From positions 744,001-808,000 of the forward strand of contig NZ_CADDWI010000008.1 in assembly GCF_902809845.1 (NCBI RefSeq): 64,000 bases of DNA. The letters are read 5' to 3'. The notes under the pieces were generated by a model. It was not told the origin of the DNA, did no database searches, and saw nothing but the letters and a program-made list of their open reading frames with translations. This stretch comes from Chelativorans sp. Marseille-P2723. Lineage in GTDB: Bacteria; Pseudomonadota; Alphaproteobacteria; Rhizobiales; Rhizobiaceae. Shown piece by piece: positions 34,358 to 53,591 of the stretch; position 1 is the first letter of the stretch, and every line of letters begins with the position of its first letter. Position numbers and translations under genes: made by a program.

Positions 34358-36649
34358 ATGAAGGTAGCGATCCTTGGCGGTGGTCCGGCCGGACTTTACT
34401 TCGCGATCTCGATGAAGCTGCGGGATGCAACTCATGAGGTCACGGTTTACGAACGCAACCGTCCGGACGATACTTTCGGCTGGGGTGTGGTGCTCTCGGA
34501 CGAGACGCTCACGCATCTGGAAGCGAACGACCCGATAAGCGCCTCTGCCGTGCGGGCGAATTTTGCCTATTGGGACGATATTTCCGTGCATTATCGAGGT
34601 ACACGGACGGTATCGAGCGGCCATGGCTTTTGCGGCATCGGCCGCCAAAAGCTGCTTCTGCTCCTGCAGGAGCGGGCACGCGAGCTGGGTGTCGAACTGC
34701 GGTTCCAGACGGAGATCGACGATCCTCGCCCCTTCATGAAAACCCATGACGTGGTGATCGCTGCGGACGGCCTGAACTCTAAGTCACGGGCTGTTTTCGC
34801 CGATGTTTTCCGGCCGGATATCGACGTGCGCAAGTGCAAATTTGTATGGCTTGGCACGCACCAGAAATTCGATGATGCCTTCACATTCATATTCGAGGAG
34901 ACGGAGCACGGCTGGGTATGGGCGCACGCCTACCAGTTCGACACGGATACGGCCACCTTCATCGTCGAATGCGCGCCGGAAACCTGGGAAAGGTTCGGCT
35001 TCGGCGATATGACGAAGGAAGAGTCGATCGCCACCTGCGAGCGTATTTTTGCCAAGTATCTGGGCGGTCACAGCCTCATGTCCAATGCCAACCACATCCG
35101 TGGTTCGGCCTGGATCAATTTCCCGCGCGTGCTTTGCGCGCGCTGGTCGCACGAGAATATCGCCTTGATGGGGGATGCGGCGGCGAGCGCTCATTTCTCG
35201 ATCGGATCGGGCACGAAGCTGGCCCTTGAAAGCGCGGTGGCGCTGGCCGATTATCTTCACTCCGAGTCGACTCTTGAAGCTGCCTTTGCGAAGTACGAGC
35301 ACGACCGGCGGACGGAAGTGCTGAAGCTCCAGTCCGCTGCGCGCAACTCGCTCGAATGGTTCGAGGACGTAGAGCGGTATCTTCATCTCGACCCGGTTCA
35401 ATTCAATTACTCGCTGCTGACCCGTTCGCAGCGCATCAGCCACGAGAATCTGCGGGTTCGCGATCCCGAATGGCTCAGTAATGCCGAAGCCTGGTTCCAG
35501 CGTAAGGCGGGCAGCAATGTGAATGGCGCGCGTGCGCCGATGTTCGCGCCCTTCCGGTTGCGGGAGATGCATCTTGTCAACCGCGTTGTTGTTTCTCCGA
35601 TGGCGCAGTATCGGGCTGTCGACGGCTGTCCGACAGAGTGGCACTTCGTCCACTATGCCGAGCGGGCGAAAGGCGGCGCGGGGCTTGTCTATATCGAAAT
35701 GACCTGCGTGACACCGGAAGGGCGCATCACTCCGGGTTGTCCCGGCTTCTACAAGCCGGAACACGAAGCTGCATGGAAGCGCATAGTCGATTTCGTCCAT
35801 CGCGAGACGGAAGCGAAGATCTGTGCTCAGATTGGCCATGCGGGCGCCAAGGCTTCGACGCAGGTCGGCTGGGAGGATGCGGACATGCCGCTTGTCTCCG
35901 GAAACTGGCCCATCATCGCGCCCTCGCCTGTGCCCTGGAGCAAGGCCAATCAGGTGCCGCGCGAGATGACGCGCAAGGACATGGACGAAGTGCGCGATGC
36001 TTTCGTCGCGTCGGCGGAGATGGCGAACCGCTGCGGATTCGACATGCTGGAGCTGCACATGGCGCACGGCTATCTCCTGTCCGCCTTCATTACGCCGCTC
36101 ACCAACAAGCGGACCGACGAATATGGCGGCAGCCTGGAAAACCGCATGCGCTATCCATTGGAGGTTTTCCACGCGGTGCGTTCCGTATGGCCGGCGCAGA
36201 AGCCCATTTCCGTGCGCATTTCTGCCAATGACTGGGTGGGCGATGAGGGCATCCTGCCCGAGGACGCGGTAGATATCGCACGCATGTTGCAGGCAGCCGG
36301 TGTGGATGTTTGCGACGTCTCTGCCGGGCAGACTTCCACCCGCGCGAAGCCGGTCTATGGCCGGATGTTCCAGACACCGTTCTCGGACCGCATCCGTAAC
36401 GAGACTGGAATGGCGACGATGGCGGTCGGCAATATCTACGAACCGGATCATGTAAACTCCATCCTGATGGCCGGTCGCGCGGATCTGGTGTGTCTTGCCC
36501 GGCCGCATCTTGCCGATCCTTATTGGACATTGCACGCGGCGGTGGATCTCGGCGACCGTCACGTTAAATGGCCGAATCCCTATCTACCGGGCCGCGAACA
36601 AGCCTACCGTCTTGCCGAGCGACGTGACGCAATGCTCGGAAGAGTGTGA
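34358..36649 (+). CDS. Anthraniloyl-CoA monooxygenase/reductase (bifunctional flavoprotein)
   Basis: A 763-residue two-domain flavoprotein. Residues 1 to ~380 are a class A FAD monooxygenase related to salicylate hydroxylase, with GGGPAG at 7-12 and [20 protein letters not shown] as second FAD motif. Residues ~392-760 are an old-yellow-enzyme/2,4-dienoyl-CoA reductase-like FMN barrel ([37 protein letters not shown]). This fusion is characteristic of 2-aminobenzoyl-CoA monooxygenase/reductase, which hydroxylates the ring and then reduces it to a non-aromatic 5-oxocyclohexene CoA ester with NADPH. Salicylyl-CoA 5-hydroxylases share the fold, but the kynurenine-pathway neighbours favour anthraniloyl-CoA. 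ATG at 34358 gives the family N-terminus [12 protein letters not shown]. First gene of a tight operon. Confidence 0.9.
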
Positions 36650-36702
36650 TAATGCAGCCCAACCCTTCATCGAATGTTACGCATCATCCGGAAGGATTTG
36701 CC

Positions 36703-37461
36703 ATGACGGGCCTGCGACACGCGCTGGTCACGGGTGGCGGCTCGGGTGTTGGCCGGGCGATTGCCCATGCGCTAGCCGATGCGGGAATGGAGGTGACGAT
36801 CTGCGGACGGGGCATGGAGGCGCTGGAGGCTGCCGCTAAAGAATATTCGCGGCTTCATCCGATTGCTGCCGATGTCACTGACGCAGCATCTATTGCATCC
36901 CTTTACAAACAGGCTGAGCTGGAGCGTGGAGCGATCGACGTTGTCGTCGCCAATGCAGGAATTGCCATCAGCGCACCGGCAGCCAAGGTCTCGCTCGAAG
37001 ACTGGAAGAGGACGTTGGACGTCAATCTGACCGGAGCTTTCCTGACGGTTCAGCCAGCTCTTTCTGGAATGATGGCGCGCAGGAGCGGCCGGATCGTCTT
37101 TATCGCGTCCACGGCGGGCCTCAAAGGGTACGGTTATGTTGCACCCTATGTGGCTTCCAAACATGGTGTGATTGGCCTCATGCGCGCGCTTGCCGCCGAG
37201 CTTGCCCGCACCGGCGTGACGGTCAACGCGGTCTGCCCCGGCTACGTCGAAACAGAGATGCTGGAACGATCGGTCGAGCGGATCGTGGAGAAGACGGGGC
37301 GCACGCCTGATGAGGCGCGCGCGGGCTTGATGGCATGCAATCCCCAGGGAAGGTTCATACAGCCGGAGGAGGTCGGGTCTGTTGTGCGGTGGCTTTGCAG
37401 CGACGGTTCTGCCTCGGTGACCGGGCAAGCATTGTCAATCTCTGGGGGAGAGACATGGTGA
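36703..37461 (+). CDS. SDR-family oxidoreductase of the anthraniloyl-CoA operon
   Basis: A 252-residue NAD(P)-dependent short-chain dehydrogenase. The cofactor motif is TGGGSGVG near residue 9, NAG appears in VVANAGIA, the catalytic Ser in FIASTAG and YxxxK as YVASK in VAPYVASKHGVIGLM. The C-terminal SISGGETW is typical of classical SDRs. The ATG at 36703 has GGAAGG seven bases before it; an earlier in-frame GTG at 36646 overlaps the preceding stop but adds a non-family leader. It probably oxidises or reduces a hydroxy/oxo group on the dearomatised ring or on a later acyl-CoA; which step is not shown by sequence. Its stop overlaps the MarR start. Confidence 0.88.
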   Translation: MTGLRHALVTGGGSGVGRAIAHALADAGMEVTICGRGMEALEAAAKEYSRLHPIAADVTDAASIASLYKQAELERGAIDVVVANAGIAISAPAAKVSLEDWKRTLDVNLTGAFLTVQPALSGMMARRSGRIVFIASTAGLKGYGYVAPYVASKHGVIGLMRALAAELARTGVTVNAVCPGYVETEMLERSVERIVEKTGRTPDEARAGLMACNPQGRFIQPEEVGSVVRWLCSDGSASVTGQALSISGGETW

Positions 37462-37931
37462 GCGTGCCGCTTTCTCTGGTTGAGGAGGGCACAGGTAACA
37501 AGGAACGCCTTCGCCTTTGGATCAGGCTCTTGCGTATGACGCGCATTGTCGAGGCGGAGTTGCGGGAGCGGCTGAAGCGCGACTTCGATTCGACCCTTCC
37601 ACGATTCGATGTGATGTCGGCGCTGCATCGGCAGCCGGAAGGCATGCTGATGAGCGATCTTTCGCGGTTCCTTCTGGTTTCGAATGGCAATGTTACCGGC
37701 ATTGTCGACCGGTTGGTCAGGGACGGCTATTTGACGCGCACGCGGCGAGAAGGGGACAAGCGCACCTCGGTGGTGCGGCTGACCGAGGCTGGCGCTGCCT
37801 TTTTCGAGAAGATGGCGGCAGCACACGAGCAGTGGATCGCGGAACTGCTTCCGGGGATCGACACGGCAGAGGTGCATGAGCTTTCGAAGCTGCTTTATGC
37901 ATTTCGTAGCAATTGGGAGAATGAACATTGA
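37455..37931 (+). CDS. MarR-family transcriptional regulator inside the anthraniloyl-CoA operon
   Basis: A 158-residue winged-helix regulator. The DNA-binding core runs [40 protein letters not shown]; key parts are MSDLSRFL (helix 2), NVTGIVDRL (recognition helix) and [20 protein letters not shown] (wing with the DKR signature). Flanking helices form the dimer. The ATG at 37455 lies within the SDR stop region (ATGGTGA), and the downstream hydratase gene overlaps its stop, so it is fully embedded. MarR proteins near CoA-ligase pathways usually repress and are released by an aromatic CoA ester; anthraniloyl-CoA as effector is inference. Candidate sites are at 34274-34300 and 49383-49401. Confidence 0.88.
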
Positions 37932-38746
37932 AAGCGGTTGAAATGGCTGGTCTGGAGCCGAAACATTTTCTCTGGCGCATGGAGGGCCGGGTTGCAATCA
38001 TCCAGCTCAACCGCCCTGATCGCAAAAACCCGCTCACCTTCGATTCCTATGCGGAACTGCGGGATACATTCCGCAGCCTCGCCTATGCCGAAGACGTGGA
38101 CGCAGTCGTTCTTCTGCCAAATGGCGGCAATTTCTGCTCCGGTGGCGATGTTCATGACATCATTGGTCCGCTGGTCAAGATGGACATGAAGGAGCTTCTG
38201 TCGTTCACCCGTATGACGGGCGACCTGGTCAAGGCAATGCTCAATTGCGGCAAGCCGATCATCTCAGCCGTCGATGGGGTGGCGGTCGGCGCTGGTGCCA
38301 TCCTTGCCATGGCTTCCGATCTTCGCATCGCGACCCCGGCGGCAAAGACGGCATTTCTCTTCACTCGGGTGGGGCTTGCCGGTTGCGACATGGGCGCTTG
38401 CGCGATCCTGCCGCGTATCATCGGGCAGGGTAGGGCAGCGGAACTCCTTTATACTGGCCGCACCATGAGTGCCGAAGAGGGAGAGCGCTGGGGCTTCTAC
38501 AACCGGCTGGCTCCGGCGGAGGAACTGGAGGCGGAGGCGCTGGCCCTTGCCGGGCGCATAGTTTCGGGCCCGACCTTTGCCCATGGCATCACCAAGACAC
38601 AGCTCAACCAGGAATGGTCCATGAGCCTTGAACAGGCGATCGAAGCCGAGGCGCAGGCTCAGGCAATCTGCATGCAGACCCGCGACTTCGAGCGCGCCTA
38701 CAATGCCTTCGTGGCGAAGGAAAAGCCCGTTTTCGAGGGCAATTGA
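37928..38746 (+). CDS. Enoyl-CoA hydratase/isomerase family protein
   Basis: A 272-residue crotonase-fold enzyme. CoA-binding and oxyanion-hole blocks are [11 protein letters not shown] and [20 protein letters not shown]. The helix [20 protein letters not shown] carries the second active-site region; the acid residues of classical hydratases (two Glu) are not both in the usual places, so the exact reaction is uncertain. The TTG at 37928 overlaps the MarR stop and has GGGAG seven bases upstream; ATG at 37943 is an alternative. It shares the operon with the ring-reducing flavoprotein, so hydration or ring-opening hydrolysis of an alicyclic CoA ester is likely. Its stop TGA shares one base with the next ATG. 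Confidence 0.85.
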
Positions 38747-39903
38747 TGGTGGACCGCTCTTTCCTTTGCTGGCCTTTCTTCGAGGATCGCCATCGCGACT
38801 TTGCGGAGCGGCTGGAAACGTGGTGCGCGCGAAACCTGCCCGTCGCCCATGATGACGTCGATGCCGCTTGCCGTGAACTCGTCACGAAGCTAGGGCGCGA
38901 CGGCTGGCTGAAGCCCACGGCAGTTGATCCTGCCGTTCCCGCAGCGCTCGATGTGCGGACGCTGTGCCTTGCGCGCGAGACGCTGGCCCGGCATGACGGG
39001 CTTGCCGATTTCGCCTTTGCCATGCAAGGGCTCGGCACCGGAGCGATCAGCCTTTACGGCACGCCGGAGCAGAAGCAATGGCTGGAAAGGACGCGCGCGG
39101 GCGACGCGATCTCCGCTTTTGCGCTTTCAGAGCCACGTTCCGGCTCCGACGTGGCCAATATGGACATGGCAGCAGAACGTGACGGCGATTTCTATGTGGT
39201 CAATGGCGAGAAGACCTGGATTTCCAACGGCGGCATAGCTGATTTCTATGTGGTCTTCGCCAGGACAGGAGAAGGTCCCGGCGCCAGGGGAATTTCCGCC
39301 TTCCTCGTTCCGGCGGATATAAAGGGGCTGAATATTGCCGAGCGGCTGGAGGTGATCGCGCCGCATCCCTTGGCGCGTCTTTCCTTTGAAGATGTGCGCC
39401 TGCCAGCCTCAGCGATGATCGGCAAGCCGGGCGAGGGCTTTCGCATCGCCATGTCGGTGCTCGACGTATTCCGCTCTACGGTTGGCGCGGCGGCTTTGGG
39501 TTTTGCGCGGCGAGCGCTTCAGGAAAGCGTAAAGCGCGCCGGCGAGCGGAAACTTTTCGGCGCGCCGATGGCTGAGTTGCAGATGGTCCAGGGGCATCTT
39601 GCCGATATGGCACTCGATGTCGACGCTGCCGCGCTCCTCATTTACCGAGCGGCTTGGACCAAGGACAATGGGGCCGAACGGGTTACGCGCGAGGCGGCGA
39701 TGGCAAAGCTCTTTGCGACCGACCGCGCTCAGGACGTGATCGATAGGGCGGTCCAGCTCCATGGCGGCGACGGCGTTCGAAGCGGGCACATCGTGGAACG
39801 CCTATACCGTGAAATACGCGCCTTGCGCATCTATGAGGGTGCGTCCGACGTACAGAAAGTGGTGATCGCGCGGCAGGTGCTGTCGGCAGCAAGAAAAGAC
39901 TGA
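38746..39903 (+). CDS. Acyl-CoA dehydrogenase
   Basis: A 385-residue FAD enzyme of the acyl-CoA dehydrogenase family. Signatures are [17 protein letters not shown] (FAD/substrate loop, about residues 124-140), [19 protein letters not shown] and the C-terminal [20 protein letters not shown] followed by [22 protein letters not shown]. The catalytic base Glu of short/medium-chain enzymes is consistent with IYEGASDVQ. The ATG at 38746 overlaps the preceding stop by one base. In context it probably introduces a double bond into an alicyclic or ring-opened CoA ester from anthraniloyl-CoA. Electron acceptor would be ETF, whose genes are not in view. Confidence 0.9.
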
Positions 39904-39950
39904 CGAAAGATCGCCTCCATAATTCCATCGTTGCTTGAGCGGAGAATTGA

Positions 39951-40346
39951 ATGCACACCATTTTGCAGCCCGAGGGTTGGGCAAAACCTGTCGGCTATTC
40001 GAATGGCATTGCGGCGCGTGGTACACTCGTTTTCGTTGGAGGCCAGGTTGGCTGGAACGGTGATTACGAGTTCGAGAGCGACGATTTCGTCGATCAGGTG
40101 CGGCAGACGCTCCAGAATGTCGTTGCCGTGCTTGCCGAGGCGGGTGCCGGCCCCGAGCACATTACCTCGATGACCTGGTATTTCACTGACAAGGCCGAAT
40201 ATCTTGCCAATCTCAAGGGGATTGGCGCAGCATATCGCGAGGTGATCGGCCGTCATTTTCCCACAATGGCCGCCGTCCAGGTTGCGGCACTGATAGAGGA
40301 CCGTGCCAAGGTGGAAATCCAGGCAATGGCCGTCGTGCCGGATTGA
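39951..40346 (+). CDS. RidA/YjgF-family protein
   Basis: A 131-residue trimeric-fold RidA-superfamily protein. Family landmarks are YSNGIAARGTLVFVGGQVGWN, QVRQTLQNVVAVLAEAGAGPEHI and the end segment AAVQVAALIEDRAKVEIQAMAVV. RidA enzymes hydrolyse reactive enamine/imine intermediates to ketones and ammonia. The canonical Arg near residue 105 that binds carboxylates is not evident here (A-A-L-I follows QV), so it may belong to a RidA-like subgroup. It sits 47 bases after the acyl-CoA dehydrogenase with GGAGA before its ATG. The dearomatised product of anthraniloyl-CoA is an enamine, so deamination is a plausible role. Confidence 0.87.
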   Translation: MHTILQPEGWAKPVGYSNGIAARGTLVFVGGQVGWNGDYEFESDDFVDQVRQTLQNVVAVLAEAGAGPEHITSMTWYFTDKAEYLANLKGIGAAYREVIGRHFPTMAAVQVAALIEDRAKVEIQAMAVVPD

Positions 40347-40352
40347 GCAGCA

Positions 40353-40925
40353 ATGCAGATAGCAAACTTTCTTGACACCGAGCTGCCTGCTTTCTTTTCC
40401 CGGCCGGCACCGGAGGTGGCAAGGGAGCTCATCGGCGCGGAGCTGCTGGTGGGAGAAACCGGTGGCGTGATCGTGGAAACGGAGGCATATGATCGCGACG
40501 ATCCTGCCTCTCACAGCTATCGGGGCCCTACTTCACGCAATAGTTCCATGTTCGGGGCGCCCGCCCACGCCTATGTCTATCGCTCCTATGGCATCCATTG
40601 GTGCCTCAACTTCGTTTGCCTTCCCGGTAGCGCTGTCCTGATCCGTGCTCTTGAGCCTTCGGCTGGAATTGAAACCATGCAGAAGCGGCGCGGAACGCAA
40701 TCTCCGCGCCTGCTCTGCGCGGGCCCCGGCCGCCTCTCCCAAGCGCTCGGTATCGATGGCTCAATGGACGGCGCTCCCCTTTTCGCACCGCCTTTTCAGC
40801 TGACGCTGCCGGAACAGCACTTTCCCGTCATGGTTGGCACGCGCATTGGTATATCGCGAGGCATCACCACTCCATGGCGCTTCGGGCTAAGAGCCTCGCC
40901 CTATGTCAGCCGCAGGTTTGCCTGA
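40353..40925 (+). CDS. mpg: 3-methyladenine DNA glycosylase (AAG/MPG family)
   Basis: A 190-residue base-excision repair enzyme of the alkyladenine glycosylase family. Signatures are [11 protein letters not shown] near residue 23, the catalytic segment [19 protein letters not shown] with its Glu, then [23 protein letters not shown] and [16 protein letters not shown]. Length is typical for bacterial members. It starts 6 bases after the ridA stop and ends 16 bases before the kynU ATG, so it is transcribed with the catabolic genes although its task is DNA repair. There is no sequence sign of decay. Confidence 0.92.
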
Positions 40926-40941
40926 GCGTCGGAGGATAGCC

Positions 40942-42189
40942 ATGTTCCAAGTGCCGGATCTCGCCGCTGTTAATGTCATGGATTCTGCCGACCCTTTGAG
41001 GGCGCTTCGGCACGAGTTCTCCTTGCCCGAAGGGATCGTCTATCTCGATGGCAACTCTCTAGGCCCTGCCTCGCACTCCGTTCTTGCCGATCTGGAAAGC
41101 GCCGCCAGAAAGGAGTGGGCCGAGGGATTGATCCGCAGTTGGAACGGCGCGGGCTGGTTTACTTTGCCCCTTACCTTGGGGGATTGTATCGGTAGGCTGG
41201 TGGGAGCTGCGCCTGGCCAGACGGCCGTATGCGATACCACCTCGATCAACATCTACAAAGCTCTCCATGCCGCCATGGTCCTTAGGCCTGGCCGGCCTGT
41301 TATCGTTGCAGAAGGTGACAGCTTCCCTACCGATCTTTACGTGGCAGAGGGGGTGGTATCCACGCATAACGGGGCGAGCCTTCGGCTTGAAGGCGTAGAC
41401 GCGCCCACGATCGAGGAGCTGATTGACGATCAGGTCGCGGCCGTCCTCGTTAACCATGTCAACTACAGGACGGGTGCGCTTCGCGACATGACGGCGCTCA
41501 CCCGCAGGGCGCATGAGGCGGGCGCGCTCACCGTGTGGGATCTCTGTCACTCCGCGGGTGCGCTGCCCGTCGAGCTGGATAAGGCGGAAGCTGATTTAGC
41601 TGTCGGCTGCACCTACAAATATCTCAACGGCGGCCCCGGCGCACCCGCCTTCATCTATGTGGCACAGCGTCATCATGCACAGGCGCAGCAACCCCTCAGC
41701 GGCTGGTGGGGACACGCACGTCCTTTCGCCTTCGAGCAGAGCTTTTCCGGCGCCGAAGGCATCGCCAAGTTCCAATGCGGAACGCAACCCATCCTGTCGC
41801 TAAGGGCGCTGAAGGCCGCGCTCGACATCTGGGATGGAGTGGATATGGAACTGGTAAGGCAAAAGAGCATTGCCTTGACCGATCTGTTCATCGGGCTGGT
41901 GGAGGCAAGATGCAGCGCTTTTGGTCTGACGCTGGAAAGCCCGCGCGAAGGACATCGGCGCGGCAGCCAGGTCGCATTCGCGCATCAGAACGCCTATGAG
42001 ATTATGCAGGCGTTGATTTTTTGTGGCGTCATTGGAGACTTTCGCGCTCCCTCTACGCTGCGCTTCGGCTTCTCCCCGCTATATATCGGGTTCGCCGATG
42101 TGTGGCATGCAGTCGAGGTGCTGGAAGAAGTGCTGCGTACCGGATTATGGAAGGAAGCACGTTTCGCTCACCGCACCATGGTGACATGA
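40942..42189 (+). CDS. kynU: Kynureninase
   Basis: A 415-residue PLP enzyme that cleaves L-kynurenine to anthranilate and L-alanine. The N-terminal YLDGNSLGPAS block is a family mark. The cofactor region is VWDLCHSAGALPVELDKAEADLAVGC with the aspartate and His, and the Schiff-base Lys is in GCTYKYLNGGPGAPAF. FQCGTQPILSLRALKAALDI and the C-terminal RFGFSPLYIGFADVWHAVEVL complete the fold. The ATG at 40942 is preceded by GGAGG; a longer frame from 40903 lies inside mpg. Last gene of the rightward operon; its stop is 7 bases from the livF stop on the other strand. It supplies anthranilate to the CoA ligase encoded at 47615-49255. Confidence 0.94.
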   Translation: MFQVPDLAAVNVMDSADPLRALRHEFSLPEGIVYLDGNSLGPASHSVLADLESAARKEWAEGLIRSWNGAGWFTLPLTLGDCIGRLVGAAPGQTAVCDTTSINIYKALHAAMVLRPGRPVIVAEGDSFPTDLYVAEGVVSTHNGASLRLEGVDAPTIEELIDDQVAAVLVNHVNYRTGALRDMTALTRRAHEAGALTVWDLCHSAGALPVELDKAEADLAVGCTYKYLNGGPGAPAFIYVAQRHHAQAQQPLSGWWGHARPFAFEQSFSGAEGIAKFQCGTQPILSLRALKAALDIWDGVDMELVRQKSIALTDLFIGLVEARCSAFGLTLESPREGHRRGSQVAFAHQNAYEIMQALIFCGVIGDFRAPSTLRFGFSPLYIGFADVWHAVEVLEEVLRTGLWKEARFAHRTMVT

Positions 42190-42196
42190 ACGCTCA

Positions 42197-42883
42197 TCAG
42201 ACGCCCAGATAACGGTCCTGAAGGTCAGGTGTGAGCGCCTCCGGGGTTCCTTCGAAAACGGTTTTGCCTTTCTCCAGGATGTAGCAACGGTCGGCCACCC
42301 GCAAAAGTTCTGACAGCGTCTTGTCGACGACGAGGATGGTCTGGCCGCTGGCTTTCAGCTTCGAAAGGGCGCGCCAGATGTCCTGCCGGATCACGGGCGC
42401 CAATCCTTCCGTGGCCTCGTCCAGCACCAGAAGCTTCGGATTTGTCATGAGGGCGCGACCAATCGCCAGCATCTGCTGCTCGCCGCCCGAAAGCGTGTTG
42501 GCATATTGTTCGCTGCGTTCTTCAAGTCGGGGAAAGAGCCCGAACACCTTCTCCAGCGTCCATTCGCCCCCCCGTGCCGCTGCCGTCAAATTCTCGAAAA
42601 CGGTGAGGTTGGGGAAGCAGCGTCTGCCCTCCGGCACCAGCCCCAGGCCAAGTCTTGCGATACGATGCGGTCGCCTGCCGGCAATTTCGGCGCCTTCGAA
42701 ACGGATCGAGCCGCTGCGGGGACGGATCAGGCCAAAAACAGATCTGATCGTCGTTGTCTTGCCCATGCCATTGCGGCCCATGAGAGCGACCATCTCGCCT
42801 TCGTCCAGCGTAAGGCTGACTCCGTATAGTGCTTGCGAGGCACCATAGAAGGATTCGACATCGGCCAGTTCCAGGAGTCTCAC
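42197..42883 (-). CDS. livF: Branched-chain-type amino acid ABC transporter ATPase, LivF
   Basis: A 228-residue ATPase subunit. Walker A is GRNGMGKTT near residue 36, the ABC signature NTLSGGEQQMLAIGRALM, Walker B LLVLDEATEGLAP, and the H loop segment ILVVDKTL lacks the usual His (VDKTL where many LivF have VEQN). The GTG start at 42883 overlaps the livG stop (GTGA). It is the last gene of the leftward operon and energises import together with LivG. Confidence 0.93.
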   Translation of the reverse strand: MRLLELADVESFYGASQALYGVSLTLDEGEMVALMGRNGMGKTTTIRSVFGLIRPRSGSIRFEGAEIAGRRPHRIARLGLGLVPEGRRCFPNLTVFENLTAAARGGEWTLEKVFGLFPRLEERSEQYANTLSGGEQQMLAIGRALMTNPKLLVLDEATEGLAPVIRQDIWRALSKLKASGQTILVVDKTLSELLRVADRCYILEKGKTVFEGTPEALTPDLQDRYLGV

Positions 42884-45522: not shown

Positions 45523-45585
45523 GGATTGCCATCCGGATGGATTTTGAAAAGCCGAAAGGGATCCGCCGGAAGGGCGGGCGGAACA

Positions 45586-45612
45586 CCGGGACCCGGCTAC
45601 TCCGGGTCCCGG
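45586..45612 (-). terminator. GC-rich hairpin between livJ and livH
   Basis: CCGGGACCCGG (45586-45596) and CCGGGTCCCGG (45602-45612) form a perfect 11-bp stem with a 5-base loop, 23 bases after the livJ stop. There is no T tract. Such stems after binding-protein genes usually protect or attenuate the upstream transcript so that more binding protein than permease is made. Confidence 0.7.
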
Positions 45613-45634
45613 AAAGAGGAACGGGCTGCGCCGC

Positions 45635-46768
45635 TTACATGGGGCAATCCTTGGCGTAGGCGTCCGAATGATCTTCGAAGGCTGTGCCGATGATGCGGTT
45701 GGTCAGCACGTCGCCCTCCTTGATGACCTCGCGGACATAGATGTTCTGGACCGGATGGTTGTTATTGTTAAAGGAGAACTCCCCGCGTACCGATTCGAAA
45801 TCGGCCTCCTTGAGTGCGGCGCGGAATGCTTCCTTATCCTTCACGCTCGCCTTGGAGAGCGCCGAGAGAATGAGATTGGCCGTGTCCCAGCTCTGAGCCG
45901 CATAGACCGAGGGAAGGCGTCCGAACTCGGCCTCGAATGCCTCGACGAACCGCTTGTTCGCTTCATTGTCGAGGTCCTTCGACCAGCTTGCGGAGTTCTT
46001 CACGCCGAGCGCCGCATCTCCCACAGCCGGCAGCACGTCCTGGCTGAAGGAAAAGCCGGGCCCCATGACAGGAATGTCAACGCCGGACTGGGCGTATTGC
46101 TTCATGAAGGCAATGCCCATGCCCCCCGGAAGGAAGAAGAAGACCGAATCGGCGCCCGAAGCGCGGATCTGCGCGATTTCGGCCGCATAATCGGTCTGGC
46201 CGACTTGCGTATAGATCTCGCCTGCAAGCTCTCCGGTATAGAAGCGCTTGAAGCCCGTAAGCGAATCCTTGCCCGCCGGATAGTTGGGCGCAAGAATGAA
46301 GGTGTTCTTGTAATTCTGCGCGGCGTACTGCCCCATCGCCTCGTGGAAATTGTCATTCTGGTAGGCGACGTTGAAGTAATTGGGATGGCAGTTTGCCCCT
46401 GCCAGCGCCGACGGGCCGGCGTTGGGAGAAAGATAGATGATGTCCTGGGCAACCGTATTCGGCACCACGGCCATGGCAAGGTTGGACCATATTATGCCGG
46501 TCATGAGATCAACCTGGTCGCTCTGGATCATCTTTTCAGCGATCTGAACGGCAAGTTCCGGCTTCTGCCCGTCATCTTCGATGACAAGCTCGATCTCCTC
46601 GTTTCCGGACTGCTCGACGGCCAGTACGAAGGCGTCGCGCACATCGATGCCAAGCCCGGCACCGCCGCCCGAAAGCGTGGTGATGATGCCGATCTTGACT
46701 GGCTCCGCCAGGGCGGTGCTCGACAGAGCGAGCGCCGCGCTGAATATTCCTGCTGCGATAAGTTTCAT
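45635..46768 (-). CDS. livJ: ABC transporter substrate-binding protein of the Liv/aromatic-acid type
   Basis: A 377-residue periplasmic binding protein (family Peripla_BP_6). The signal peptide is MKLIAAGIFSAALALSSTALA with mature start EPVKIGIITTLSGGGAGLG. The last residues (YAKDCPM) and a single Cys near residue 129 could form a disulfide. The ATG at 46768 has GGAGGGG five bases upstream. It is transcribed 26 bases after kynA, so the importer is tied to tryptophan degradation; the ligand is likely tryptophan, kynurenine or anthranilate rather than leucine, by context only. Confidence 0.9.
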   Translation of the reverse strand: MKLIAAGIFSAALALSSTALAEPVKIGIITTLSGGGAGLGIDVRDAFVLAVEQSGNEEIELVIEDDGQKPELAVQIAEKMIQSDQVDLMTGIIWSNLAMAVVPNTVAQDIIYLSPNAGPSALAGANCHPNYFNVAYQNDNFHEAMGQYAAQNYKNTFILAPNYPAGKDSLTGFKRFYTGELAGEIYTQVGQTDYAAEIAQIRASGADSVFFFLPGGMGIAFMKQYAQSGVDIPVMGPGFSFSQDVLPAVGDAALGVKNSASWSKDLDNEANKRFVEAFEAEFGRLPSVYAAQSWDTANLILSALSKASVKDKEAFRAALKEADFESVRGEFSFNNNNHPVQNIYVREVIKEGDVLTNRIIGTAFEDHSDAYAKDCPM

Positions 46769-46794
46769 TTTCCCCTCCTGCGATTGCCGTTGCG

Positions 46795-47628
46795 TCAGAG
46801 CTTTGTGCGTACTTTCCAGAGTTCGGGAAACAGTTCAACCTCCAGCATCTTCTTCAGATACGAAACGCCGGAAGTACCGCCTGTTCCACGCTTTAGCCCG
46901 ATGATCCGCTCCACTGTCGTAACATGATTGAAGCGCCAGCGGCGGAAGTAATCCTCGAAATCGACCAGCTTCTCGGCCAGTTCATAGAACATCCAATGCC
47001 GCTGGGGATCGTTGTAAACTGCCTGCCATGCTGCAAGCACTTCCTCGCTCTGCATCCTTGTCTCGCGCCAGCTCGTGCGGCTGGCGTCCATCCCGACGTC
47101 AAATCCGTTGCGGGAAAGAAGGAGGATGGCCTCCTCGTAAAGGGAGGGCCGGTCGAGAATTGCCTCCAGTTTCGCCAACAGATCCGGCCTGTGCGCGTGA
47201 GGGCGCAACATGGCAAGATTCCTGTTCCCTGCCATGAATTCGATGGCGCGGTACTGCCAGGATTGGAAGCCGGAAGATTGGCCAAGAGCGTGCCGGAATT
47301 GCGTGTACTCGCTGGGCGTCATGGTCCGCAGGACGTCCCAGGCATTGTTCAACTGCTCGAAGATCCGCGCCACACGCGTCAGCATCTTGAAGGAAGGCTC
47401 CAGCTTGTCCTGGCGGATCATCTGCATGGCCGCGCCGATTTCATGGAGCGCCAGCTTCATCCATAGTTCCGACGTCTGATGCTGGATGATGAACAGCATT
47501 TCATCATGGGCAAATGAAAGCGGTACCTGTGCGTCAAGCACACGGTCAAGACAGAGATAGTCGCTGTAGGACATCCGATCCTTAAACGACATCTCGGCTC
47601 CTTCGGTGGCAGGGTCAGGCGCTTTCAT
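46795..47628 (-). CDS. kynA: Tryptophan 2,3-dioxygenase
   Basis: A 277-residue haem enzyme that opens the indole ring of tryptophan to N-formylkynurenine. Family marks are [19 protein letters not shown] near residue 19, the substrate-site block [35 protein letters not shown] and the haem-ligand His in [18 protein letters not shown], then [15 protein letters not shown]. The ATG at 47628 overlaps the CoA ligase end by 14 bases and gives the EGAEMSF-type leader seen in relatives; ATG at 47592 has a better ribosome site (GAAGGAG) and would give 265 residues. It lies between the ligase and livJ. Confidence 0.95.
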
Positions 47629-49255
47629 CGTAACGATACTCCGCCCTTAGCCGAAAGCGCTGGAGCTTGCCCGTCGGCGTCTTGGGTAACGCGTCGGTAA
47701 ATCTGATCGAGCGCGGATATTTATACGGCGCGATTGCCGCCTTCACATGCTCCTGAAGCCGCCGGATGCATGCTTCGTCGCGCTCCACGCCTTCGACGAG
47801 CACTATATGTGCCTCCACGATCTGGCCTCGATCCGGATCGGGGGCGCCAATCACGGCGCATTCAGCGACATCCGGGTGCGTCAACAGGGCGGCTTCAACT
47901 TCCGGCCCTGCGATATTGTAGCCGGCGCTGATGATCATGTCGTCGGAGCGGGCAACGAAATGGAAAAAGCCTTCTTCGTCCTGGAGGAAAGTGTCACCGG
48001 TGACGTTCCAGCCCTCTCGCACATAGTCGCGCTGTCGGTCGTCGGCGAGGTAGCGGCAGCCGGTCGGGCCGCGCACTGCGAGCTTGCCGGGCGTACCGCG
48101 CGGAACCTCGCGCATCTCGTCATCCACGATGCGCGCCTCGTAGCCGCCGACGGCCCTTCCGGTCGACCCGGGCTTCAGGTCCTCGAAACGGTTGGAGATG
48201 AAGATGTGAAGCATCTCGGTGGAGCCGATGCCGTCGAGGATCGGCTTTCCGGTTTTCTTCATCCATTCCTCGAAAACCGGCGCCGGCAAAGTCTCACCTG
48301 CGGAGACTGCCGCGCGCAGGGACGAAAGATCGGCGCCCTGCTCCATGGCCTTCAGCATGGCCCGATAAGCCGTCGGAGCGGTGAAACAGACCGTTGCGCG
48401 GTAGGTCTCTATGATCTCGATCATGTTGGCCGGGGTTGCTTGCTCCAAAAGGGCCGCCGCAGCGCCAAAGCGGAGCGGAAAGACGGCAAGCCCGCCAAGC
48501 CCAAATGTGAAGGCGAGCGGCGGTGAGCCGACAAAGACATCCTCCGGCCTGACCTTCAGCACCTCCTTTGCATAGGAATCCGCGATGATCAGAAGGTCGC
48601 GGTGGAAGTGCATCGTGGCCTTCGGAATGCCGGTAGTACCCGAGGTAAATCCCAGTAACGCCACATCGTCCCGGCCAGTTTTAACCGCCTCGAACGTCAC
48701 CGGCTTGTCGAGGGCAGCACGATCGAGCTCCGCGTCGTGGTTCGCCGTGCCGTCGAAGCCGACTACCTGCTTCATAAAGCGGCTTTCCTTGGCACAGGCG
48801 ATCATCTCGTCCATCAGCCGCGTATCACAGAGGGCAAGCGAGATTTCGGCCTTGTCAACAATCTTCGCAAGTTCGGCGGCACGCAGCATAGGCATGGTGT
48901 TGACGACCACCGCTCCCGCCTTTGTGGCAGCCAGCCAGCACGCCACCATAGCGGGATTGTTTGCAGCGCGAATCAGCACGCGATTGCCCGGCTTGACGCC
49001 GTAATTTTCTACCAATGCGCGGGCGAGGCGGTTGGTCCAGTCGGAAAGCTCCTTGTAGGTGCGCCGTCTGCCGTGGCCGATCAGGGCCGTGTGATCACCC
49101 AGACCTTGTTCTACCTGCCTGTCGGTGAGTTCCACCGCAGCGTTGCAGTATTCAGGATATTCAAAACCATCGAGCAGGAATGCCGGCCACTGTTCCCGCG
49201 GCGGTAGATTGTCGCGAGCAAAAGTATCGATATGCGCTGTCGGTCCCAACATCAT
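47615..49255 (-). CDS. 2-aminobenzoate (anthranilate)--CoA ligase, benzoate-CoA ligase family
   Basis: A 546-residue adenylate-forming enzyme. The P-loop is [21 protein letters not shown] (TSGTTGIPK core), motif A5 is [13 protein letters not shown]7/A8 appear as [23 protein letters not shown] and [13 protein letters not shown], and the C-terminal catalytic Lys is in [24 protein letters not shown] is typical of benzoate and aminobenzoate CoA ligases. Start at the ATG pair 49255/49252, preceded at a distance by GGAGGAGGT; the open frame runs to 49354 but the extra leader is not conserved. Position beside kynA and the dearomatising flavoprotein makes anthranilate the probable substrate. First gene of the leftward operon. 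Confidence 0.9.
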
Positions 49256-49382
49256 CGGGTGACGTTTTACCTCCTCCGCAAGCCGGCGGCGTGGCTGCTG
49301 CGGGGCAGTGCTCCCACCTTGCCCAATCCATCGCGCAGACGCCGTGGCTGTCATTTCCCTAACTCAGCATGACACCGCTCCG

Positions 49383-49401
49383 GAATTACTTCAAGCATAA
49401 A
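49383..49401 (-). promoter_or_regulatory. Motif shared with the anthraniloyl-CoA operon leader
   Basis: Minus-strand TTTATGCTTGAAGTAATTC matches TTTAGGCTTGAAATATATC at 34281-34299 in 16 of 19 positions, and both lie 60-130 bases before the first gene of a pathway operon. It sits between the divergent CoA ligase and arylformamidase genes. A MarR operator or shared promoter box are both possible. Confidence 0.45.
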
Positions 49402-49481
49402 GCTTTTCGTTTTGCATATTGACATCGACCATTTTCCTTCGTCCCTGTGTGGTGTTTCACGGCGGCAGGGAGCGCTTGGTG

Positions 49482-50312
49482 ATGCTGGAGCGGATGATCT
49501 CGGACTGGGATGATGCCTATGCGAACGGGCCGAACATCCCGGATGCCCAACGCTGGCCGGGGGCATGGGTGGAACCGGCGCGTGCATTTCGTAAACACAT
49601 GGAGGAGAAGAAGCGGGCAAGGCTCGATATCGCCTATGGCCAGGCACCTCGTAACCGGCTCGATCTCTTCCTGCCGGACGGGACTCCGAAGGGCTTGGTG
49701 GTGTTTGTCCATGGCGGCTATTGGCTGAAGCTCGACAAGAGCTGCTGGTCCCATCTGGCCGGTGGCAGCGTGGAATTGGGCTACGCCGTGGCAATGCCTT
49801 CCTATACGCTCTGTCCTGACATCCGCATTTCAGGCATCGTGGATGAAATTGCTGCCTCAATCGTCAAGGCGGCCGGCCTCGTGAAAGGGCCGGTAATGCT
49901 TGCCGGGCATTCCGCCGGCGGGCATCTGGTGAGCCGCATGATCGCTCGTGCATCCCCATTGTCGGATGAGCTGAGGTGGCGTATCCACCGCGTTGTCTCC
50001 ATTTCAGGGCTGCACGATCTGCGCCCGCTCATGCGCACCGCAATGAATGAACAGCTTCGTATCGACGAGGACGAAGCGGTTGCGCAAAGTCCGGCCCTCC
50101 TGCAGCCGGTGGAGGGTGCGCGGGTTGTCTGCTGGGTCGGCGGTAGCGAGAGGGCGGAGTTCTTGCGACAGAGCGCGCTTCTTGCCAATATCTGGACCGG
50201 CCTTGGGGCGGTGACCGCTTCTGTAGTGGAACCGGACCGCCATCATTTCAACGTTATCGAGGGACTTGCCGACGCAAGTCATCCTTTGACCGAAGCTCTA
50301 TGCGAAGGATAG
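49482..50312 (+). CDS. Alpha/beta-hydrolase arylformamidase (kynurenine formamidase)
   Basis: A 276-residue alpha/beta hydrolase. The oxyanion motif HGGYW is in VVFVHGGYWLKLDKSCW, the nucleophile Ser in MLAGHSAGGHLVSR and the likely catalytic His in EPDRHHFNVIEGL. HGGxW plus this layout is typical of kynurenine formamidase of the eukaryotic AFMID/BNA7 type, distinct from the metal-dependent bacterial KynB. It hydrolyses N-formylkynurenine to kynurenine and formate, filling the step between kynA and kynU. ATG at 49482 has GGGAG ten bases upstream; ATG at 49494 is possible. It is divergent from the ligase-kynA operon. A general esterase role cannot be excluded by sequence alone. Confidence 0.85.
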   Translation: MLERMISDWDDAYANGPNIPDAQRWPGAWVEPARAFRKHMEEKKRARLDIAYGQAPRNRLDLFLPDGTPKGLVVFVHGGYWLKLDKSCWSHLAGGSVELGYAVAMPSYTLCPDIRISGIVDEIAASIVKAAGLVKGPVMLAGHSAGGHLVSRMIARASPLSDELRWRIHRVVSISGLHDLRPLMRTAMNEQLRIDEDEAVAQSPALLQPVEGARVVCWVGGSERAEFLRQSALLANIWTGLGAVTASVVEPDRHHFNVIEGLADASHPLTEALCEG

Positions 50313-50313
50313 T

Positions 50314-50332
50314 TTATCGTTTAAGTCGATAA
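50314..50332. promoter_or_regulatory. Interrupted palindrome before the MBL-fold gene
   Basis: TTATCG-N7-CGATAA lies directly after the arylformamidase stop and touches the proposed ATG of the next gene. Its TTTATnnTTnAAGT core partly resembles the shared motif at 49383-49401. It may be an operator, in which case the true start of the next gene may be further in. Confidence 0.35.
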
Positions 50333-51483
50333 TGTCTTTGCGGTTCCGGTTTCGTATTAATCGGGCCACCCGCTTCTATCTCCAACAAGACAGGCAACTT
50401 TTGACCTTGAGTTTCAGCAATAAAATTCTTTCCCTCGCCTCCCGTGCTGCGGATTTGTCAGATACTGAGGTGCTGGTCGAGTCCCCACCGGAATGGGGGG
50501 CCCCGGTGGAGGTCGCCGATGGCATCCTCTGGGTTCGCCTGCCGCTTCCCTTCGCGCTTGATCATGTCAATGTCTACCTCATAAGGGGACAAGACGGTTG
50601 GGCGCTGCTCGATACCGGCGTCGACGATGCCAGGATTCGTTCGATCTGGGAGGAATTGTTCTCTGGCCCGCTTGCCGGTGAGCGTCTGGAGCGCGTGATT
50701 GTCAGCCACTACCATCCGGACCATGTAGGCCTTGCCGGCTGGCTTGCTGCCAAGTTCAATATTCCGCTGCATATGAGCGCAACCGATTACCTGCTTGCCC
50801 GCGGACTTTCCCATCCTGCCGGCAGCGGGCTGATGCGGTTCAGAAAAGGCTTTCTTGAGTCACACGGGGTCGAACCCGAGTTGGCATCGGTGGTCACCGA
50901 GCGCGGCCAGAGATTCTTGGATATGTGCTCGCCGCTTCCTGGCACGTTCCGCCGGCTGCTTGCCGGCATGTCGCTGCATCTGGGTGGTACCGCGTACGAA
51001 GTATTGACAGGCGGCGGCCACGCGCCGGAACAGGTCATGCTGTACGGTGCGAAATCAGGCGCTTTTTTCTCGACGGATCAGGTGTTGCAGCGGATTTCTC
51101 CCAATGTCGGCATCACGCCACTTGCGCCCGATGACGATACGCTGGATGAGTATCTGCGGTCTCTGGGGGAGATAAGGGAGCGTGTTGCGTCTGACGTACT
51201 CGTTCTGCCTTGCCATGGCCTGCCATTCAAGGGGCTACACCAGCGGATCGACGAGCTTTCCGCGCATCATCACCGCCGCTGCGACCGAATCTTGGAAGCG
51301 GTTGCAGACCGCCCCATGACAGTAGGTGAATTGCTGCCGGTTCTGTTTCCCCGCCCTCTCGATCCTCAACAGCGTAGCTTCGCCTTTGCCGAGGCGCTTG
51401 CCCATGTGAACTACCTGGTCGCACGCGAGCGTTTGCAGCGCCTCGAGTCGGAGGGCATCTACCGCTACTCCGCCAACGGCTAG
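50332..51483 (+). CDS. MBL-fold metallo-hydrolase
   Basis: Up to 383 residues. The metallo-beta-lactamase fold begins about residue 57 (VADGILWVRLPLPFALDHVNVYLI). Metal-binding residues are HYHPDH in VIVSHYHPDHVG, a His in GGGHAPEQ, an Asp in FFSTDQVL and a His in VLPCHGLPF, the full binuclear set. A C-terminal winged-helix extension (GELLPVLFPRPL to YRYSANG) as in LACTB2-like proteins follows. The ATG at 50332 has no good ribosome site and the first ~45 residues are unlike the family, so a start near 50401 is possible. It follows the arylformamidase by 19 bases. A thioesterase or ring-hydrolase role in the pathway is speculation. Confidence 0.83.
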   Translation: MSLRFRFRINRATRFYLQQDRQLLTLSFSNKILSLASRAADLSDTEVLVESPPEWGAPVEVADGILWVRLPLPFALDHVNVYLIRGQDGWALLDTGVDDARIRSIWEELFSGPLAGERLERVIVSHYHPDHVGLAGWLAAKFNIPLHMSATDYLLARGLSHPAGSGLMRFRKGFLESHGVEPELASVVTERGQRFLDMCSPLPGTFRRLLAGMSLHLGGTAYEVLTGGGHAPEQVMLYGAKSGAFFSTDQVLQRISPNVGITPLAPDDDTLDEYLRSLGEIRERVASDVLVLPCHGLPFKGLHQRIDELSAHHHRRCDRILEAVADRPMTVGELLPVLFPRPLDPQQRSFAFAEALAHVNYLVARERLQRLESEGIYRYSANG

Positions 51484-51530
51484 TCTGAAGTGCGGGCCGT
51501 GCCGGCGGGACGAGGGCCGCCGGCGGCTTG

Positions 51531-53591
51531 TCAGGAATGGAAGCCTTTTCCTTCCCGGGCGAGGCTGGCAAGAAGGCCTGCCGGCGCAAGCGACTCGTCC
51601 TTCTGGTCAGTCGAAAGGCGCTCAAGCTCGGCGGCAATGGTAGCAAGCCCCATCTGATCCGCATAATACATTGGACCGCCCCGCCAACGCGGCCAGGCAT
51701 AGCCGTGAAGCCAGATCACATCGATATCGGCAGGACGCTCTGCAATGCCTTCCTCCAGTATGCGCGCACCCTCATTGATCATGGGATAGATGAGGCGTTG
51801 GAGGATCTCCTGGCGGGAAATCGTGCGTCTTGCGATGCCTTCGCGCTCGGCTGCCGCCTGAATGATCGTCTCGGCTTCAGGGTCGGGGACACCTTTGCGG
51901 GAAGCATCGGGATAAAGATAATAGCCTCTTCCCGTCTTCTGGCCCAGTCGACCGGCTTCGCACAACGCATCGGCTGCAGGTGCCCTTCTGCCGGTCGCCT
52001 TGCGCATGCGCCAGCTAATGTCCAGTCCGGCAAGATCGCCCATTGCGCACGGTCCCATCTTAAAACCGAACTCGGTCAGCGCCGCATCAATTTCGCTTGG
52101 CGAGGCTCCCTCAAGCAGCAGCCGGTCCACCTGCTCGGAGCGTCGCGCCAGCATGCGGTTACCGACAAAGCCATGGCCGACGCCGACGACCACGGGCGTC
52201 TTCTGCAGCATCTTTGCAGTTGCAATGGCAGTCAGCAGGGTCTCGTCGGAGGTGGCGCTTGCCCGGACGACTTCAACAAGCTGCATGATGTTGGCCGGGC
52301 TGAAGAAGTGCATACCAAGCACGTCTTCCGGCCTGGCGGTGGCGGCGGCAATCTCGTTCACGTCAAGATATGAGGTGTTGGTCGCAAGAACCGCGCGGGG
52401 CTTTGCGATCCGGTCGAGCGTTGAAAATATTTCGCGCTTCACCGCCATGTCTTCGAAGGCTGCTTCCACCACGAGATCCGCCTGGCCAACCTTGTCCAGA
52501 CCTACCTCGGTCTTCAGCAGGGAAAGACGATCCTCCTTCTGCTCCGCGGAAATCCTTCCGCGGTCGACGGCGGACTGGTAATTGCCCGAGATGCGCTCGG
52601 CCGCGCGGGATGCGCCTGCCTCATCGGTTTCGATGACGGTGGTGGCTATGCCTGCGTCGAGAAAGGCGATGGCGATGCCGCTGCCCATTGTGCCGCCGCC
52701 AATAATTGCTACCTGCTTCACGGGGCGTGGCGCGGCTCCCTCGGCAACCTGCGGCTTGCGTGCCGCCTCACGCTCAGCAAAGAAGGCATAACGGAGGGCC
52801 TTCGAACGCTCATTTTCCTTCAGTTGCAGAAAGAGTTCCCGTTCTAACCGCGTTGCATCCTTGAAGCTTTCCTCGAAAGCGGCGCGCACGCATCGGACGA
52901 TCGCTTCCACCTGGGGCTCGCCCGCCCGCTTTTTCAGGATCTTGGTGGCCGCTTCCTCCACTGCTGCACGCTCCGCTGATGCAGGTGTACGCTCGCTCAG
53001 GCGCCGCTTGGCGCCTTCTGCTGCGCGCTGCCTTGCAAAGGTGACCGCCACGTCGAGCAGGTTCTCTGCCGGAATGATTTCATCGACAATGCCAAGCCTC
53101 GCAGCAGCCTCGGCCGTTTTCGGATTGCCCTCTGCCATCATGGAGAGTGCCGCGGCCGGATCGATTAGGCGCGGAAGGCGCTGCGTGCCGCCAGCACCGG
53201 GAATAAGTCCCAGCTTGACCTCCGGCAGGCCCAAGGTCGAGGCCGGCGTCGCCAGCCGGAAGTCACAGGTGAGCGCCACTTCCAGTCCGCCCCCAAGCGC
53301 TGCGCCGTCAATTGCCGCCACAAAAGGCTTTTTGCAGGCGTCTATCGCGGCGAGCAGTTCAGGAAGTGAAGGCGGCTGCGGTGGCGCGTTGAATTCCTTG
53401 ATGTCCGCACCTGCGATGAAGGTTTTGCCTGCCGACGCGATCACGATGGCTTCAACCGTTCCGTCGGCTTCCGCTGCCCTGATGCTTTCTGCAAGGCCGG
53501 CACGGACCGCGTGTCCAAGCGCGTTAACGGGCGGGTTATCGATAATCAGAAGCGCTATCCCATTGCGCTTCTCAAGCGTTACTGGGGGCAA
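51531..53591 (-). CDS. Bifunctional enoyl-CoA hydratase / 3-hydroxyacyl-CoA dehydrogenase
   Basis: A 686-residue FadJ/peroxisomal-type multifunctional enzyme. The N-terminal crotonase domain (about 1-190) has KTFIAGADIKEF and AIDGAALGGGLEVAL with the catalytic Glu region LPEVKLGLIPGAGGTQRL. The NAD domain starts at VAIIGGGTMGSGIAIAF near residue 295, with VVEAAFEDMAVKREIF, the catalytic-His signature LGMHFFSPANIMQLVEVV and GFVGNRML. Two C-terminal helical domains follow. The start is TTG at 53591, preceded by AAAGGAGGAG. It would complete beta-oxidation of the ring-derived acyl-CoA, and no thiolase gene is in view. It is transcribed toward the MBL-fold gene. Confidence 0.92.
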   Translation of the reverse strand: MPPVTLEKRNGIALLIIDNPPVNALGHAVRAGLAESIRAAEADGTVEAIVIASAGKTFIAGADIKEFNAPPQPPSLPELLAAIDACKKPFVAAIDGAALGGGLEVALTCDFRLATPASTLGLPEVKLGLIPGAGGTQRLPRLIDPAAALSMMAEGNPKTAEAAARLGIVDEIIPAENLLDVAVTFARQRAAEGAKRRLSERTPASAERAAVEEAATKILKKRAGEPQVEAIVRCVRAAFEESFKDATRLERELFLQLKENERSKALRYAFFAEREAARKPQVAEGAAPRPVKQVAIIGGGTMGSGIAIAFLDAGIATTVIETDEAGASRAAERISGNYQSAVDRGRISAEQKEDRLSLLKTEVGLDKVGQADLVVEAAFEDMAVKREIFSTLDRIAKPRAVLATNTSYLDVNEIAAATARPEDVLGMHFFSPANIMQLVEVVRASATSDETLLTAIATAKMLQKTPVVVGVGHGFVGNRMLARRSEQVDRLLLEGASPSEIDAALTEFGFKMGPCAMGDLAGLDISWRMRKATGRRAPAADALCEAGRLGQKTGRGYYLYPDASRKGVPDPEAETIIQAAAEREGIARRTISRQEILQRLIYPMINEGARILEEGIAERPADIDVIWLHGYAWPRWRGGPMYYADQMGLATIAAELERLSTDQKDESLAPAGLLASLAREGKGFHS

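Follow-up and report, generated by a model that had tools for sequence, protein, structure and literature searches.

The aerobic 2-aminobenzoate cluster of Azoarcus (Aromatoleum) evansii was reportedly described by Schuhle et al. in 2001, and we take it to include a MarR regulator, a RidA-like protein and an ABC solute-binding protein. The aerobic route itself, in which 2-aminobenzoate (anthranilate) is degraded via anthraniloyl-CoA, is already known according to the excerpts available from two papers (PMC4539516; PMC6221969). For plasmid pAL1 of Arthrobacter sp. Rue61a, the accessible part of one paper reports a gene with anthranilate-CoA ligase activity, and anthraniloyl-CoA and a C7H8O4-CoA compound, maybe cyclohexanedione-carboxyl-CoA, in anthranilate-grown cells (PMC3534580). 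The authors of GapMind, in the excerpt available, name tryptophan degradation via the anthraniloyl-CoA monooxygenase/reductase (ACMR) as one of the pathways left out because too little was known (PMC9007349). Here we describe a locus of Chelativorans sp. Marseille-P2723 in which an ACMR gene lies together with genes for tryptophan 2,3-dioxygenase (TDO) and kynureninase (KynU). The window analysed is a stretch of 64,000 nucleotides (G000:C8:744001-808000, G000 being the strain's own 3.77-Mb genome). The locus forms two convergent gene runs, a plus-strand run at 34358-42189 from ACMR to KynU and a minus-strand run from 49354 to 42197 comprising ligase, TDO and importer genes, whose ends are seven bases apart. 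We consider it highly probable that they make up a two-operon regulon for tryptophan catabolism via anthranilate and anthraniloyl-CoA under MarR control, for which we infer the substrates, the operons, the repression and the order of the late steps. An earlier, sequence-only reading of this DNA had already treated the hybrid 2-aminobenzoyl-CoA route as established, as in Azoarcus, and the two papers cited first agree with it.

The ACMR of the window matched NF006101 over residues 1-758, that is, as a full-length fusion, with 1282 bits (cut-off 1078), and is 49% identical to the pAL1 ACMR. Full-length ACMR was found in 47 genomes of a sample of 101 (the own genome and 100 relatives), in 41 of them above the curated cut-off. 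KynU was present in 32 of these 47 genomes but in only 3 of the 54 without ACMR (p 2e-11), and full-length TDO in 32 and 2, respectively, four genomes with partial TDO matches (G011, G024, G062 and G077) being omitted from the TDO set. The same association was seen in a sample of 398 Pseudomonadota genomes, the own genome included. ACMR was found in 71 of them, KynU in 54 of the 71 and in 56 of the other 327 (p 2e-21), and TDO in 55 and 40, respectively. All genomes are related, so that the p-values overstate independence and are a guide only. The co-occurrence with KynU favours anthraniloyl-CoA over salicylyl-CoA as the likely substrate of ACMR.

The genome search for linkage of kynU with the flavoprotein gene, suggested in the sequence-only reading, gave a kynurenine gene (KynU or TDO) no more than 25 kb away from ACMR in 21 of 33 close relatives that have both and in 15 of 58 such genomes of the phylum, the latter being a lower bound because of contig breaks. 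Linkage recurs far above chance and is not unique to this genome. The view that the two steps are usually encoded apart holds for the phylum, where 43 of 58 genomes did not have them within 25 kb on one contig, but not for the close relatives. Among 80 named ACMR loci (the best 80 of 590 confirmed matches, many on short contigs; for nine gene families, matches below 33% identity were discarded), 25 carried KynU or TDO in the stretch examined, 12 of these together with importer genes; one of the 25 (L152) rests on a 30% KynU match which may be a paralogue. Matches to the ligase, the dehydrogenase and the crotonase occurred in 61, 68 and 72 of the 80 loci, respectively, and a RidA-family gene in 47, some loci being short. 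With an anthranilate-CoA-type ligase near ACMR and beta-oxidation genes, the window would encode a pathway of the abm type. The nearest named loci, among the matches listed, are from Aquibium, Aquamicrobium, a Rhizobiaceae metagenome-assembled genome and Mesorhizobium, at about 80% identity. A further named locus (L144, CP051228.1), with an ACMR cluster 73% identical to that of the window, is titled Mesoflavibacter, presumably a Bacteroidota name; the label may be wrong.

On a tree of ACMR sequences with 102 rows, of which 41 are linked (L074 and L075 were set as linked by hand), linkage switched state at least 19 times; the island has therefore been assembled or lost repeatedly. The window KynU groups with six same-genus rows and one row from G043 in a starred set of eight, set apart from the KynU of the same-genus genomes G005 and G009. 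The arrangement of the ACMR-to-KynU run facing importer, TDO and ligase is common to seven same-genus species (G000, G001, G002, G003, G006, G007 and G012), and because of this repetition the gene order is more than chance.

A shared core, TTCAAGCnTAAA, was spotted by eye in the promoter regions of the two runs. These are its two exact copies in the window, where no third match was found even with one mismatch. The 12-mer by itself is suggestive at most, because shuffled windows contained 0.57 such matches on average and two or more in 10 of 100 cases. A 21-bp position weight matrix (PWM) was trained on 60 ACMR upstream stretches, that of the window included. Next to the two sites (Table 1), the best separate site in the window scored -0.1, and the maximum in 100 Markov-1 windows was 17.8. 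When 128 related ACMR genes were scanned over 250 bases upstream, 114 had a site of at least 11 bits; in the subset of 69 genes held out from training the count was 55. Among 2560 random stretches taken from these loci, 43 had such a site, and some of them may contain true sites. Ligase-side sites were also found in eight other loci, none of which was used in training. A MarR match was missing from the stretch examined in 12 of the 114 site-bearing loci and present in 8 of the 14 site-less ones. The MarR protein is likely to be the reader of the motif. Since the only two occurrences of the motif in the window precede one gene run each, the two convergent operons look like one regulon, in which MarR would control, probably repress, both the ACMR-to-KynU and the ligase-TDO-importer operon through one operator each. 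The solved MarR protein 3boq, considered as the Ruegeria cluster's own MarR, turned out to be a relative and not that protein.

The proposed upper route from tryptophan via kynurenine and anthranilate to anthraniloyl-CoA and ACMR agrees with the co-occurrence of ACMR with KynU and TDO and with the affiliations of ligase and KynU. TDO would open the indole ring, the alpha/beta hydrolase would probably remove formate, kynureninase would release anthranilate and alanine, and the ligase would form anthraniloyl-CoA. ACMR would then hydroxylate and reduce the latter to 2-amino-5-oxocyclohexene-carbonyl-CoA, a reaction known from Azoarcus. The best solved relative of the ligase is the anthranilate-CoA ligase 4wv3 (299 bits, as against 252 at most for benzoate ligases), and the protein is 53% identical to the AMP-binding ligase adjoining ACMR on pAL1; it is probably an anthranilate-CoA ligase. 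KynU matched the Pseudomonas enzyme 1qz9 with 448 bits, and 7s3v and 3e9k, which we take to be human kynureninases, with 129 and 116 bits. The Trp, Gly and Thr of the kynurenine type, presumably the specificity residues Trp64, Gly281 and Thr282 of the P. fluorescens enzyme, are kept in 31 of 31 KynU copies, and by these residues the enzyme is of the kynurenine type. All copies in this and the following residue counts are distinct sequences, taken as the best match per locus with identity cut-offs of 35% (KynU), 40% (RidA), 45% (hydrolase) and 50% (crotonase and dehydrogenase).

A KynB-family formamidase (TIGR03035) was not found in the own genome and was present in 1 of the 101 genomes, and the TDO genomes therefore need another formamidase. 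The alpha/beta hydrolase divergent from the ligase gene matched the kynurenine formamidase 4e11, and its HGG motif and active-site Ser and His are kept in 35 of 35 copies. With at least 48% identity it was found in 24 of 34 full-length-TDO genomes as against 16 of 67 others (p 1e-5; 14 genomes with matches of 34-40% identity omitted), and it abuts TDO in G094, G043 and Ruegeria pomeroyi. It is a probable kynurenine formamidase, although its occurrence without TDO counts against this as a single role; the arylformamidase noted earlier is an alpha/beta hydrolase and not a KynB, its formamidase function being putative. A better match than 4e11 is 2pbl, named a putative esterase, which as the nearest solved relative of the 49494-50312 product may serve as a template.

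The importer comprises two ATPases, two permeases and one binding protein, as in the HAAT/Liv type, and none of its components reaches a curated substrate-specific cut-off. The binding protein matched 4evq with 170 bits and 4ey3 with 151 bits, which are presumably binders of benzoate derivatives, and this would favour anthranilate over tryptophan as the cargo. A plain urea transporter was rejected: UrtA-E are the nearest NCBIfam names, all below cut-off, and urea-binding chains reached at most 56 bits. Binding proteins of at least 65% identity were found in 29 genomes, within 25 kb of ACMR in 15 and of the hydrolase in 21; in 9 they lie near the hydrolase without ACMR and in 5 near neither. 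Importer and hydrolase are therefore associated not only with the pathway but also with one another, and an importer dedicated to this pathway, as 'its own importer' in the sequence-only reading had implied, is unproven. Such pairs of importer genes and formamidase-like hydrolase without ACMR are seen at L169-L173 (G011, G010, G013, G015 and G045).

Importer and hydrolase could thus be a separate, perhaps older unit for uptake and hydrolysis of aromatic amides or esters that was taken into the island, and the hydrolase need not then be a formamidase. We regard this as a serious possibility, if short of an even chance. It would account for the nine genomes just mentioned, for the hydrolase loci away from ACMR (L169-L175), in all seven of which no operator of at least 11 bits was found (best 8.3), and for the name hormone-sensitive lipase that NCBI gives to the hydrolase. 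The association of the hydrolase with TDO, its position abutting TDO in three genomes and the scarcity of KynB argue against it.

Several observations weigh against the proposed tryptophan regulon. Besides the importer-hydrolase pairs lacking a nearby ACMR, 13 of the 71 ACMR genomes of the phylum have neither KynU nor TDO, 14 of the 128 ACMR upstream stretches are without the motif, and the stand-alone KynU-TDO locus of G009 (L166) has no operator site, the best score being at most 8.3 bits. NCBI names NF006101 a bifunctional salicylyl-CoA 5-hydroxylase/oxidoreductase. Cupriavidus metallidurans CH34, to which both abm and kyn genes are ascribed, failed to grow on anthranilate according to the part of the report available (PMC8879955). 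The salicylyl-CoA name, the 13 genomes and the ligase, which barely passes TIGR02262, a broad benzoate family, would suit a CoA module for salicylate or another benzoate, with the kynurenine genes as neighbours without metabolic coupling. Such a module is improbable in view of the strong co-occurrence of ACMR with KynU and TDO, the anthranilate-CoA ligase as the best solved relative of the ligase, the frequency in the named loci of the RidA-family gene, which would be of use with an amino substrate, and the operator shared by the ligase/TDO and ACMR/KynU runs. That the kynurenine genes serve NAD synthesis via 3-hydroxyanthranilate, as kynureninase does in other organisms, is scarcely credible given the kynurenine-type residues in all KynU copies and the co-location of KynU with ligase and ACMR; no 3-hydroxyanthranilate dioxygenase was found in the own genome, but that search matched no control and is not evidence.

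For the lower part of the tryptophan route, two enzymes deviate from their families. In the alignment to TdcF, the RidA-family protein has Met in place of the RidA Arg (presumably the catalytic Arg105 in E. coli). This Met is present in 85 of 85 copies, which thus lack the Arg of a RidA-type 2-aminoacrylate deaminase, and also in the 38% identical RidA of pAL1, which is outside this count. The crotonase-fold enzyme lacks both catalytic Glu of enoyl-CoA hydratase (which we take to be Glu144 and Glu164 in rat) in 109 of 109 copies, with Ile, Met or Cys and Arg or Lys instead, as placed by hand alignment of the motif, whereas one Asp is invariant in all 109. Its structural model has a mean pLDDT of 82; since confidence is lowest at 142-147, within the active-site loop, we claim no geometry. 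Foldseek placed the model nearest to 3g64 and then to the PaaG isomerase. The putative crotonase 3g64, 43-44% identical to the product of 37943-38746, may serve as a template. The acyl-CoA dehydrogenase has the catalytic-type Glu in 104 of 104 copies.

The Met-type RidA might deaminate the enamine to dioxocyclohexane-carbonyl-CoA, whereupon SDR, single-Asp crotonase and acyl-CoA dehydrogenase would reduce or isomerise, open and dehydrogenate the ring product for beta-oxidation. The possible cyclohexanedione-carboxyl-CoA of strain Rue61a agrees with removal of the amino group prior to ring opening. We tentatively suggest, as a possibility rather than an expectation, that the Met-type RidA is a dedicated enamine deaminase, that the single-Asp crotonase isomerises or hydrolytically opens the diketone ring, and that MarR controls the whole tryptophan route through a motif recurring before ACMR genes across Alphaproteobacteria. 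Both altered enzymes look undescribed, the Met-type RidA having been covered in the literature search by the term RidA alone.

The features of the locus are listed in Table 1. Genes were called by a family search at or near the positions of the sequence-only reading, and all the families it had named were recovered there. It had overlooked the DNA glycosylase gene in the plus-strand run. The spacing of the genes suggests that both runs are operons.

Table 1. Coordinates of genes and operator-like sites in the window (ORF, open reading frame)
Feature	Position	Strand	Basis or remark
Operator-like site 1, upstream of ACMR	34277-34297 (core 34281-34292)	+	PWM 32.0 bits, in training set
ACMR, fusion of FAD monooxygenase and Old Yellow Enzyme-type reductase	34358-36649	+	NF006101; PF01494 + PF00724
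SDR oxidoreductase	36703-37461	+	PF00106; match in 74/80 named ACMR loci
MarR-family regulator, probable reader of operator	37455-37931	+	PF12802/PF01047; match in 72/80 named ACMR loci
Crotonase-fold enzyme	37928-38746 (start may be 37943)	+	NF006107 486 bits, cut-off 330
Acyl-CoA dehydrogenase, catalytic-type Glu	38743-39903	+	PF00441/PF02770
RidA-family protein, Met replacing RidA Arg	39951-40346	+	PF01042; alignment to TdcF
Methylpurine-DNA glycosylase, passenger gene	40353-40925	+	PF02245; same place in G007, G012
Kynureninase (KynU), kynurenine type	40903-42189	+	TIGR01814 334 bits, cut-off 246; best solved 1qz9
Importer ATPase (LivF/UrtE-like)	42197-42883	-	TIGR03410 213 bits, below cut-off
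Importer ATPase (LivG/UrtD-like)	42880-43629	-	TIGR03411 210 bits, below cut-off
Importer permease (LivM/UrtC-like)	43622-44605	-	TIGR03408 136 bits, below cut-off
Importer permease (LivH/UrtB-like)	44602-45522	-	TIGR03409 192 bits, below cut-off
Importer solute-binding protein	45635-46768	-	nearest solved 4evq, 4ey3
TDO	about 46795-47592, ORF reaches 47628	-	TIGR03036 418 bits, cut-off 390.7
CoA ligase, probably anthranilate-CoA ligase	47615-49354 (true start may sit about 100 bases inside this frame, of which relatives cover 93%)	-	TIGR02262 377 bits, cut-off 375; best solved 4wv3
Operator-like site 2, between ligase and hydrolase genes	49385-49405 (core 49390-49401)	-	PWM 27.6 bits, outside training set
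Alpha/beta hydrolase, probable kynurenine formamidase	about 49494-50312, ORF opens at 49419	+	4e11, E 6e-18
MBL hydrolase	about 50380-51483	+	probably outside island
FadJ-like fusion (terminal)	51531-53591	-	probably outside island

The same-genus species helped to define the island boundaries. The hydrolase gene lies beside the island in six of the seven species, the copy of G002 being located elsewhere. The glycosylase gene is present in G000, G007 and G012, its place being taken by a FadJ-like gene (47% identity) in G001, G002, G003 and G006. A tblastn search at E 1e-8 gave no match to the MBL gene in any of the 80 named ACMR loci or the 46 ACMR loci of relatives, in the stretches as fetched. 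In the six same-genus genomes that were read beyond these stretches, neither the MBL gene nor the terminal FadJ gene was matched next to the island. Both genes, counted as island members in the sequence-only reading, thus probably lie outside it. As a PqsE-like aminobenzoyl thioesterase the MBL protein was rejected, the PqsE match being weak (E 2e-5, best 6ao1) and the gene not having been found alongside the island elsewhere. In G011, the 20 kb read still contain hydrolase, a 54-residue piece of TDO, importer and RidA, no ligase being matched there, and searches of the whole genome returned neither a full-length ACMR nor a KynU; this looks like a loss of the island.

Just downstream of the island, 54348-59138 carries genes for the osmolyte N-acetylglutaminylglutamine amide (amidotransferase, synthetase and M42 peptidase). 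At about 25970-26920, the start of an M48-type peptidase (by eye) meets the end of a 4-alpha-glucanotransferase (PF02446) in a different frame, which looks like a deletion junction or an assembly join.

The presence of KynU in 54 of 71 ACMR genomes suggests that ACMR of Pseudomonadota is mainly a tryptophan-degrading enzyme and that the salicylyl-CoA family name misleads for many of its members there. The steps after ring reduction are left open in the parts of the literature available, and the Met-type RidA and single-Asp crotonase give two concrete candidates for assays. With the operator, the regulon becomes testable and further members can be found by DNA search. No description of the joint island or the operator was found in the open-access literature, whose broad result lists were covered in part, so that this absence is weak evidence.

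In comparison with known systems, the locus shares CoA ligase, two-flavin ACMR and beta-oxidation-type enzymes with the Azoarcus evansii cluster, as far as the accessible text describes it (PMC4539516), and differs by TDO, kynureninase, the formamidase-like hydrolase and five importer genes, a comparison made by description and not by sequence. On pAL1 (NC_009453), ligase, ACMR and a Met-type RidA gene are likewise near each other at 49-53% identity, but a quinaldine upper pathway replaces the kynurenine genes, the regulators are PaaX-like and no operator of the window's kind precedes ACMR. The kynurenine pathway (anthranilate branch) with KynB has TDO and kynureninase in common with the window, which has the alpha/beta hydrolase and no KynB match. 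The ACMR clusters of Ruegeria pomeroyi (L177, SPO_RS21870) and pAL1 (L180, ARUE_RS22895) contain a cupin-domain gene not seen in the window, and acyl-CoA thioesterase genes occur in those of Paracoccus, Thalassospira and pAL1. The Ruegeria pomeroyi DSS-3 megaplasmid (SPO_RS21860-21905) and Thalassospira marina pCSC3H3 carry ACMR, SDR, MarR, crotonase, dehydrogenase, ligase, RidA, TDO and alpha/beta hydrolase, and in Thalassospira also KynU, but in another gene order and with no importer of the window's kind in the 30 kb shown. TDO or KynU next to ACMR is thus already visible in annotated records of these two bacteria. The chemistry of the Chelativorans locus is ordinary as far as known, and its regulation and the two lower-pathway enzymes are the informative part.

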